The notes under the pieces were generated by a model. It was given only the letters and a program-made list of their open reading frames with translations, was not told where the DNA came from and did no database searches. Made by a program: the position numbers and the translations under genes. A stretch of DNA of 64,000 bases from a bacterium 0.1xD8-71 (GTDB lineage: Bacteria > Bacillota > Clostridia > Lachnospirales > Lachnospiraceae). Location of the stretch: assembly GCA_003612405.1 (NCBI GenBank), contig RAYR01000009.1, forward strand, positions 62,001-126,000, in the 5' to 3' direction. This document shows positions 23,801 through 49,472 of the stretch, one piece after another (the first letter of the stretch is position 1; each line of letters begins with the position of its first letter).

Positions 23801-24984
23801 GTCGTGCCAGGGTGCGGACGTTACGAAACAGGCGGGAAGAGATACAGACTTATCCAGGGGAACATTATGCGGCGCTTATGCTGTCACAACTGGAATCTTC
23901 CGCGCCGGCAGAAGAATGTCTGGAAAATACACTGAGACGGTATGCCGGGCTGACATTGCCGGCAGCCTCCTGGGAGAAGATTCTTCTGCCAGGCCGGGTG
24001 AGAAATTACAGAGAGGTCTTGTTGGACAGTTTCCTGGCCAAAGGAGAACTGTTCTGGCATATGGAGGAAAACGGCGGTTTGCGTTTTGACTACCAGGAAG
24101 CCATTGACTGGGATGCGGATCTGGAAAGCCGGAAGGAAGGTCTGACGGAAAAAGAGCGCCTGCTCTATGAAACAATCCTGAAACGGGGCGCTTGCTTCAT
24201 GCAGGCACTAAACGGCCTGTTTCCCGCAGAATCTCCTCATGATACGCTGCTTTCCCTGATGGAAAAGGGTCTGGTCTACGCAGACAGTTATCTGCCTATG
24301 CGCCAGTGGCTGAATCGGGAAAAGATGAAAAAGGCGGTCATCAGACAGCAGATTAATGCACGGGTGCGGGCATTGCAGGCAGGAAGATGGGATGTGGTCA
24401 GACCCATGCGGGAGCAGATCATAGAAGAAAAACTGGAAGCCTGTGCACGGTTCAGTCCCATTATCAGTAAGGAGACTGCGGCAGCCTGGGGACTGTCCTG
24501 GCAGGAGGCTTTGTCGGTACTCCGTATCTGGGAGTATACCGGCCAGGCAAGAAGGGGATATTTTATAAAAGAACTATCCGGGGCACAGTTTATTCTGGGA
24601 AAAGATTATGAGAGTGTGGTGCGCAGGCTGCACAGGCCGGAGAAGAAACTTGTCTGGGTCAATGCGGCAGATCCCGCTCAGTGCTGGGGAAAGATACTGC
24701 CGCACCAGGAGGGAAGAAACTTCCTCAACGTGCCGGGAACAGCTGTTGCCTGTCAGGGCGGTGTGCCGGTGGCCGTGATGGAGAGACAGGGAAAAGTCCT
24801 GCGGATCTGGGAAGAGACATTACAGGAAGAGTGTCTTGCGCTTTTTGCGGCACAGTGGAAACAGGGCAGGATTTTTGCGGACAGAAAGCGTATTGTGGTA
24901 AAGGAGTATCCCCCTAGAGCGGAGACGGCCCTTAAGCAGGCGGGGTTCCGGAAAGAAATGCAGGATTATGTATTGTACATGTAA
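20878..24984 (+). CDS. lhr: Lhr-type DEAD/DEAH-box helicase
   Basis: A ~1370-residue superfamily 2 helicase of the large helicase-related (Lhr) type, a 3'-5' translocase linked to DNA repair. Motifs near the N-terminus: Q-like PTPVQKESW, Walker A APTGTGKT, motif II DELH (Lhr usually DEIH), motif III LSATIEP and motif VI QRLGRAGH. The Lhr winged-helix and bridging parts follow, then a long C-terminal extension. The start is uncertain: ATG at 20878 has only a poor SD and an in-frame TTG lies at 20854. The 123 bp before it contain a ~20-codon open stretch ending at 20849 but no convincing gene. Confidence 0.9.
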   Translation: MENVLTLFEQETAAWFVNTLGEPTPVQKESWPIIAAGHHALISAPTGTGKTLSAFFVFLDRMKRQAQAGCLQQELQLIYVSPLKSLAADIRENLNRPLEGIGAQEVISVGIRTGDTSQRDRQRMIRKPPHILIITPESLYLMLTSKTGQNILATAKAVILDELHALIDTKRGAHLMLSLARLDYLCGRPLQRIGLSATIEPLETAAQYLAPEEVKIAAPVMRKQVRLEILSPYPDASRGPRKDPVWEELGKMVYQYCQGSRSVIAFVEGRRYAEKLAYYVNLLGGDGFARVHHGSLSKEQRMETELHLRDGKLRLLCATSSMELGIDVGEIDQVLQVGCPRTISGTMQRLGRAGHNPGRVSVMYLFPRTAAECVSCGMTAQLAREGGVEHVRPPVQCLDVLAQHLVSMAAFKSYEIDEVMEIVPRAWPFRQITREDVKAVLAMLAGDYEHEKDIPARPRILYDRIHERVEGDGYSRMLAISAGGTIPDKGLYTVRNEEGVKLGEVDEEFVYESQKGDRFILGSYAWKVVNISQDTVTVTPAKMEGARLPFWHGEIKGRDRRTGEAFGRMYHSLQCAYEEGRLTEALGDLGLDETAASLAAGYLTRQIRAAGSLPDHKTLIVEHFKDTVGNSQLMVHSVFGRRINAPLSLLAAQTARERMGIEIGSVDEEDGFLLYSYGNQRLPEGLLEQIDVDACIRKLEILLPATPLFNMAFRYNSGRSLMMGVRRNGRQPLWMQRLRSAEMLEQVVRSSGHPLIRETRRECMQELWDAAGVQEVLQDIQSGAIEIREIYSEIPSPMSLPLQWSQEAAVMYDYAPTPRGIHGAVEEALQKEKDLIQPGDQELLEVQERQTLPKDEKQLHSLLMTEGDLAAGDLEIPVQWLENLADAGRVLYLEQGLWIAAEQAEAYAAAMNGGKEEQLSIVRRMLRYRGGADAAQTAQRYGWPVDTAEEVLNELCRQKAAVKQGDKYYHAKLYSRARVRTLRNRREEIQTYPGEHYAALMLSQLESSAPAEECLENTLRRYAGLTLPAASWEKILLPGRVRNYREVLLDSFLAKGELFWHMEENGGLRFDYQEAIDWDADLESRKEGLTEKERLLYETILKRGACFMQALNGLFPAESPHDTLLSLMEKGLVYADSYLPMRQWLNREKMKKAVIRQQINARVRALQAGRWDVVRPMREQIIEEKLEACARFSPIISKETAAAWGLSWQEALSVLRIWEYTGQARRGYFIKELSGAQFILGKDYESVVRRLHRPEKKLVWVNAADPAQCWGKILPHQEGRNFLNVPGTAVACQGGVPVAVMERQGKVLRIWEETLQEECLALFAAQWKQGRIFADRKRIVVKEYPPRAETALKQAGFRKEMQDYVLYM

Positions 24985-24990
24985 TCTTAT

Positions 24991-25185
24991 GTAATTGTGA
25001 AACTCCTTCACGATTGTTGGAATTGCACAAATAGTATAACCAACACAGACGCGCTTTCGCTCCGTTCCGAGCGTAGCAGGCGCTAAACTCGTGAAAGACC
25101 TCGTTAAGCGCTGACGCTCTACAAGGGTCTGCTTATGGTTATACTATTTGCACAATTACTGCATTGAAATGAGTTTCACAATTAC
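24991..25185 (+). repeat. 195-bp palindromic element, copy 1
   Basis: Long imperfect inverted repeat. The outer arm GTAATTGTGAAACTC (24991-25005) is complemented at 25171-25185. A second arm, CAAATAGTATAACCA (25028-25042), is perfectly complemented at 25136-25150. A related copy sits at 49242-49438. Shared inner sequences are CGCTTTCGCTCCGTTC and AAGGGTCTGCTTATG. An 11-bp direct repeat GTACATGTAAT flanks this copy (24975-24985 and 25189-25199), the left one covering the helicase stop codon. It could be a MITE-like element or a structured RNA gene. Confidence 0.85.
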
Positions 25186-25220
25186 CTCGTACATGTAATT
25201 GTGAGAAAAGGAGACAGAAG

Positions 25221-49165: not shown

Positions 49166-49241
49166 AATTTATAATCATGGTCTTTACAAATATGGGGCGC
49201 CAGAGTTACCATTGTAGAGGAAAAAGAGACAGGAGAAATAG

Positions 49242-49438
49242 GTAATTGTGAAACTCATTGTTGGTTGTTGAAATTGTACAAATCATATAATCAACACAGA
49301 CACGCTTTCGCTCCGTTCAAACGCAACGAGCCTAGTACCGGCAGTTTTAATCCGAAGGATTTAAACAATTGCAAGGGTCTGCTTATGATTATATGATTTG
49401 CACAATGATTGTAGCATTGAAATGAGTTTTGCAATTAT
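49242..49438 (+). repeat. 197-bp palindromic element, copy 2
   Basis: Homologous to the element at 24991-25185. The outer arm GTAATTGTGAAACTCATT (49242-49259) is complemented, less perfectly, at the other end. The inner arm CAAATCATATAATCA (49279-49293) is perfectly complemented at 49386-49400. The central part differs from copy 1 except for CGCTTTCGCTCCGTTC and AAGGGTCTGCTTATG. It fills most of the 307-bp gap between the TPR gene and gpmI; the remaining 76 bp before it show no feature. Confidence 0.85.
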
Positions 49439-49472
49439 CTAATAGGAGATAAAAGAAAAGGAGATAAAAGAA

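Follow-up and report, generated by a model that had tools for sequence, protein, structure and literature searches.

A branched core shared by MITEs with different ends in Lachnospiraceae genomes, a candidate mobile structured RNA

Bacterial MITEs are usually seen as transposon remnants whose interior is of little importance. Among the described repeats, bcr1–bcr18 of the Bacillus cereus group are multi-copy and intergenic; bcr1–bcr3 are described as MITE-like and others as having a conserved secondary structure, and among the intergenic copies 84 of 165 in one strain and 62 of 155 in another were placed in mRNAs (PMC3446304). These repeats occur in different bacteria and are compared with the elements reported here at the level of description. 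To our knowledge, no core shared inside several end types is known among bcr1–bcr18. RUP of Streptococcus pneumoniae, a MITE of 107 bp for which mobilisation in trans by IS630-Spn1 has been proposed, is similar in being a MITE with ends matching those of an insertion sequence, but it uses a TA target against about 10 bp here, and the review describing it gives no structure or function motif for it (PMC2229807). Correia/NEMIS and ERIC are likewise short MITEs, and it has been proposed that their transcripts fold and so influence how mRNA is processed or how stable it is; as described in that review, however, their stem-loops come from paired ends and not from a branched core shared between end types (PMC2229807). 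REPINs, with RAYT, are short non-autonomous palindromic elements in the form of inverted doublets (PMC3116915), whereas target duplications and IS4-type ends are present here, and 10 of the 20 genomes tested lack Y1 proteins. Members of the IS4 family produce target duplications of about 10 bp and carry a YREK motif (PMC2266710), and both features were found in the partners of one sister type (type B) in genome G023. These partners are nevertheless insertion sequences in which the core was not found, and a link to a transposase was found for type B ends and not for the type A ends of the locus studied here.

The mobile part of the present elements is ordinary, while the branched core that they share is not in Rfam and no description of it was found. 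Searching Rfam 15 with eight element loci at E up to 1 returned two sub-threshold matches, both outside the elements, and searching Rfam with 18 loci, including related hairpins, returned only rRNA and tRNA. A literature search at the level of titles and abstracts, with most subscription papers and supplementary files outside its scope, found the element described nowhere. The initial annotation of the locus knew of no described family that matches, which held in Rfam and in the literature search. One survey reports thousands of candidate RNAs from human microbiomes, and its tables could include this element (PMC8040213).

Two palindromic copies and the insertion of copy 1

The window, which is the whole 64,000-nucleotide stretch of DNA that was analysed, had initially been annotated with two palindromic elements of about 195 bp whose arms covary between the copies. 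Both palindromes were present at the places noted. The ends given for them (24991–25185 and 49242–49438) were right as to location and not as to extent, as they fall slightly inside the true element ends (Table 1). Comparison of the inner arms revealed perfect complementarity, with 15 of 15 pairs both in copy 1 (25028–25042 with 25136–25150) and in copy 2 (49279–49293 with 49386–49400). Exactly three pairs had changed on both sides from copy 1 to copy 2, as first described: 25033/25145 from A-T to C-G, 25034/25144 from G-C to A-T, and 25040/25138 from C-G to T-A. The folding energy was far under that of dinucleotide shuffles, with z = -7.8 for copy 1 and -8.0 for copy 2, and none of 200 shuffles was as low.

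Table 1. Positions of the element features within the window
Feature	Position	Strand	Remark
Copy 1, complete 204-bp MITE, type A ends	24985..25188	-	RNA-like core reads on minus strand
Target-site duplication, left, copy 1 (GTACATGTAA)	24975..24984	.	overlaps stop codon of upstream helicase gene
Target-site duplication, right, copy 1 (GTACATGTAA)	25189..25198	.	
Terminal inverted repeat, left arm, copy 1	24991..25008	+	
Terminal inverted repeat, right arm, copy 1	25168..25185	-	
Copy 1 inner stem, plus-strand 5' arm	25021..25042	+	
Copy 1 inner stem, plus-strand 3' arm	25136..25157	+	
Covariance model R1 match, copy 1, 135.2 bits: structured core and proximal arms	25024..25153	-	
GC-GAAA-GC hairpin, copy 1: GNRA tetraloop at three-way junction	25053..25060	-	
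Apical hairpin, copy 1, tandem G.A mismatches (CTTAACGAGGT...CGAGTTTAG, minus strand)	25083..25108	-	
Copy 2, MITE of about 203 bp with type A ends and a rearranged core	about 49239..49441	-	
Degraded target-site duplication, left, copy 2 (ACAGGAGAAA)	49229..49238	.	read by eye
Degraded target-site duplication, right, copy 2 (ATAGGAGATA)	49442..49451	.	read by eye
Covariance model R1 match, copy 2, 65.8 bits, without apical hairpin	49275..49403	-	
Small extra hairpin TTTTAATCC-GAA-GGATTTAAA within copy 2 core	49345..49365	+	

The terminal inverted repeats consisted of 18-bp arms with 94% complementarity in copy 1 and 21-bp arms with 86% in copy 2. The two halves of the target-site duplication matched at 10 of 10 bases in copy 1 and imperfectly, at 8 of 10 by eye, in copy 2. 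No ORF of at least 60 amino acids lay wholly within the element. Copy 2 is rearranged, its apical hairpin being absent and a small hairpin being added. A 21-nt hairpin (TTTTAATCCGAAGGATTTAAA) was inserted in the core of three copies, namely copy 2 together with L010 and L012 of the own genome.

The insertion of copy 1, which lies where the helicase gene ends, duplicated 10 bp of target. The orthologous site in genome G044, which lies between the same pair of genes with flanks 86% and 88% identical, was empty of the element, and the orthologous sites in G053, G056, and G315 were likewise without it. The single target in G044 has diverged, with 7 of 10 bases alike to the copy 1 duplication, so that the insertion is shown, but we infer the ancestral letters of the target.

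A shared core and its spread

Covariance model R1 was built from 52 curated copies (set A2) read on the minus strand. In the resulting structure 90.2% of cells pair, and 34 of the 40 pairs have changed on both sides. The covariation score was 0.527, compared to 0.216 in shuffles and 0.110–0.145 when the partners were slid. The core starts with a basal helix formed by the arms, followed by an asymmetric loop, a short helix, and a three-way junction that bears a hairpin of two pairs; beyond it, an internal loop (about 5 by 5) is followed by a long helix, which has a two-base bulge, and by the apical hairpin. One common core could be observed inside copies of four end types. This central core, about 85 nt long, was shown to be a separate module, which keeps one secondary structure while most of its paired positions change.

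In the own genome, a DNA search revealed 15 matches distributed over 12 places, three of the 15 being the palindrome matching its own other strand. The search covered the own genome together with 40 relatives, and 17 of these 41 had matches, all in the same genus. A covariance model search, of the kind proposed with the initial annotation, found many further copies. At E ≤0.01, R1 matched in 58 of the 60 genus genomes, with 17 matches in the own genome and up to at least 57 in others. Across the order, 23 of 246 genomes were positive, all of one family, Lachnospiraceae by record labels; this is a lower bound, with about 14 candidates scored per genome.

The apical hairpin (CACTTAGCGAGGTnUUUnCGAGCTTAGTG) also occurred without the rest of the core in other Lachnospiraceae, where it sometimes adjoins rRNA or tRNA genes. 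At 15 loci (L110, L126, L131, L149, L163, L168, L186, L151, L113, L142, L160, L165, L170, L181, and L129) it was found in tandem, as two or three matches spaced about 43–92 nt from start to start. Occurring both without the rest of the core and in tandem, the apical hairpin is a portable module in its own right. Its exact pattern was present in at least 120 stretches of genome contigs, several of them coming from the same genome. Among the matches listed, the labels were mostly Lachnospiraceae or its genera and the rest other or unspecific Clostridia, together with one MAG labelled Bacteroides and one record labelled only Bacterium.

Carriage by plasmids or phages was considered and rejected, as the 204-bp element had no match in plasmid and phage records and the apical-hairpin pattern had 0 exact matches in viral contigs.

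Element ends, mobility, and transposase partners

A mobility scan of 154 copies with flanks was conducted for matching ends together with an 8–11 bp duplication, using flanks paired across different copies as controls. At a score of at least 20, this signature was present in 21 of 154 copies and in 0 of 307 mixed-flank controls, while a score of 18 gave 23 copies and 3 controls. Type A ends (TAGGTAATTGCGAAACTC) with a 9–11 bp duplication accounted for 10 of the 21, including copy 1 (as L001), L003, and copies in G309 and G044. Five copies, all of G023, had type B ends (CAATGTCATTAAGTTAAG) with a 10 bp duplication; two, L133 and L174, had type D ends (CACGGAAATCAATT) with 9 bp; and one, L167, had type C ends (GTAACAGTTCAGCC) with 8 bp. 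L008 carried ends of GTTACCATTCA with an 8 bp duplication, and the remaining two, L109 and L036, although assigned to type C by the scan, each consist of a type B copy nested within a type C sequence. The combination of type C ends with the core rests on L167, where the ends and the 8-bp duplication are exact, and on one type-C-ended copy in L133; that of type D ends with the core rests on L133 and L174. One inner arm (CACAGGCGC...GCGCCTGTG) was common to types C and D (L167, L133, L174) under different ends, as if the exchange of ends were being viewed directly. In G292, two cores lie within a perfect GGGGACAGGCCCAAATTGCACAT inverted repeat (L292), which is possibly a further end type.

With inverted repeats, target duplication, an empty site for copy 1, high copy number, and no coding capacity, the elements are a MITE family. 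Nesting was also seen: type B MITEs or insertion sequences of G023 (e.g. L036, L081, L231), as well as L109, lie inside or adjoining another repeat, whose ends are GTAACAGTTCAGCC or GTTAC(T/A)(A/G)TTCAC-like.

The sister type B in G023, where its end had 261 matches, shares its ends with IS4-family insertion sequences. Four of 23 DDE_Tnp_1 loci in this genome were insertion sequences of 1.68–1.73 kb with type B ends, and clear 10-bp duplications could be observed at two of the four. All four transposases scored above the NF033592 IS4 cut-off, and the residues Y, R, E, and K of the YREK signature were at the right spacing and invariant in A3, the profile built from these four IS4 proteins. In none of the four insertion sequences was the core found. 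Profile A3 matched in 2 of 15 genomes. Of these matches, L269 had type B-like ends on both sides, and L270 (G309:C9) was a disrupted remnant of an IS4-family transposase with two stop codons, adjoining one type B-like end. The own genome had 0 matches of A3 and one DDE_Tnp_1 match, and in G309, G075, and G305 type A ends were nowhere found paired at the spacing of an insertion sequence.

Two further candidates for a partner were rejected. IS66 has GTAA ends and 8-bp duplications; as a type C partner it was dismissed, 0 of 10 PF03050 loci having a type C end pair. A suspected autonomous element in G023:C10, with end repeats 1.6 kb apart, consisted of two opposite MITE copies around an oxidoreductase-like gene.

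Strand polarity and explanations of the core

The small hairpin at the junction reads GC-TYNC-GC on the plus strand of the window and GC-GNRA-GC on the minus strand; the RNA-like signal lies on the strand opposite to that described in the initial annotation. The GNRA loop was present in 52 of 52 A2 copies, a count partly imposed by selection, as these copies were picked by a motif holding most of the GNRA hairpin with one mismatch allowed. It was also present in 81 of 86 genus copies found by R1, a model trained on A2, and in 55 of 78 copies of other genera, where 18 could not be parsed and five had other loops. A GNNA loop with a pyrimidine at the third base occurred in neither set. Tandem 5'-GA/GA mismatches in the apical stem could be observed in 44 of 52 A2 copies and 64 of 86 copies of the R1 genus set, and a second tandem GA, in the basal stem, in 10 of 52 A2 copies. 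After thinning to <80% identity, the arms and cores of the two sets summed to 120 G.U against 51 A.C on the minus strand, divided as 24:6 for arms and 26:12 for cores in the genus, and 36:10 and 34:23, respectively, in other genera. A plain MAFFT alignment gave minus-strand ratios of 53:33 and 31:12. The strand was likewise told from G.U pairs and GNRA loops in an earlier study (PMC2864571).

RNA folding of copies that were not thinned favoured the minus strand, whose energy was the lower one in 90 of 91 copies of the genus (mean -61.2 vs -51.2 kcal/mol) and in 70 of 80 copies of other genera (-61.9 vs -56.1 kcal/mol). The minus strand also had the lower energy with DNA parameters, in 83 of 91 copies and 54 of 80 copies, respectively, so that folding polarity alone is no proof of RNA. 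The mean strand gap was 10.0 and 5.8 kcal/mol with RNA parameters against about 2.6 and 0.8 with DNA parameters. The strand polarity of the core is firm, and judged from sequence an RNA appears likelier than single-stranded DNA. As the 52 of 52 GNRA count is partly imposed and the polarity persists with DNA parameters, the RNA reading is given slightly less weight and its single-stranded DNA rival slightly more.

Two explanations had been put forward in the initial annotation, selection for pairing in a structured RNA and the copying of a mobile element by way of its hairpin. The mobile element and a strong pairing constraint on its centre were both borne out, and hairpin-based copying is not needed, since ordinary MITE mobility, with inverted repeats, duplication, an empty site, and an IS4-family partner in the sister type, is sufficient. 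The core is probably a structured RNA module on the minus strand which is carried by several different MITEs. It would work as an RNA copied from the minus strand, transcribed from a putative promoter or by read-through; the covariation of the arms would reflect their pairing as the basal helix of this RNA, and different kinds of MITE would have distributed the core among Lachnospiraceae genomes. If the RNA is real, it belongs to a class that is widespread in common gut bacteria and has not been described. In these elements it is the interior that is conserved, whereas the ends can be exchanged, so the internal structure seems to be under selection independently of the transposition system. 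A wider proposal can be made tentatively, which we regard as possible and fall short of calling probable: a new mobile noncoding RNA class, whose branched module, absent from Rfam, would have been taken up by MITEs belonging to several transposition systems and would have reached tens or more copies per genome across Lachnospiraceae, with a putative RNA-binding partner of the host or the element. Such a class would be a bacterial counterpart of RNA-bearing short interspersed elements.

The core may instead act as single-stranded DNA, forming a hairpin at the replication fork or during transfer that is recognised by a protein in the manner of REP/REPIN-RAYT. This is unlikely on the present evidence, although several observations agree with it. 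Strand polarity would be expected here too, as seen in its persistence with DNA parameters. The orientation to genes is mixed: the RNA strand was antisense to both flanking genes at 43 sites, sense to both at 24, and mixed at 23, showing no preference for co-direction among the 90 scored, a count from crude ORF calling in which 18 overlapped a called ORF and copy 1 entered twice (also as L001). The core has been inverted at one orthologous intergenic site of G012, G005, and G010, whose flanks align throughout at 83%; there the 135-bp element of G010 (L031) lies in the opposite direction and is 96% identical to the G005 copy (L019), and one compensated arm change was read by eye. Close cores on opposite strands, which recall the doublets of REPINs, were head-to-head in 14 of 14 pairs, of which about 12 are independent (one pair was counted twice, two are sister copies, and L107 is a partial match), and none was tail-to-tail; six further pairs were on the same strand. 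These close cores were located at L089, L292, L134, L143, L161, L183, L018, L100, L135, L156, L177, L106, and L107, while loci with the apical hairpin only were left out of the doublet count, among them L142, which has its plus match before its minus match. The pattern looks as if the direction of the core matters, and in this it also favours the structured RNA. Against a role as single-stranded DNA, the loops are GNRA with a purine at the third base and the strand gap shrinks when RNA parameters are replaced by those for DNA. Y1/RAYT-type proteins (PF01797) were present in 10 of 20 genomes searched, the own genome having one, but the element-bearing G075, G002, G309, G043, and G087 had no PF01797 match; the RAYT/REP hypothesis was not supported for 10 of the 20 genomes.

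It is rather improbable that the element is an ordinary MITE whose internal hairpin merely folds, with RNase III processing or mRNA stabilisation in either direction. Intergenic insertions in both orientations fit such a reading, and NEMIS and ERIC are reported to act via folded transcripts (PMC2229807). It leaves unexplained, however, a common branched core with fixed unpaired bases under four end types. A slim chance is given to DNA-level correction of the palindrome, in which template switching or inversion at the hairpin makes the arms covary without selection on an RNA: the palindromes are long, inversion of the core between the arms was seen, and mismatches are rare overall, but this process is strand-symmetric and predicts equal G.U and A.C as well as no conserved unpaired bases, while G.U is in clear excess over A.C, the unpaired motifs are invariant, and the covariation lies in a branched core and not in a simple palindrome.

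Against the preferred structured RNA stand the mixed orientation to genes, the inverted core at one site, and the surroundings of the copies. Promoter-like matches at copy 1 were near chance, and a terminator was not found. A gene-specific cis-regulator was rejected, no neighbour being widely recurrent; the largest cluster, ABC-transporter-like, held 11 of 358 neighbour proteins. Some genomes carried cores in other arrangements, with a tandem core array with duplicated segments at L079 (G020:C206) and several cores some tens of kilobases apart within G276, G288, and G177 (L293–L296).
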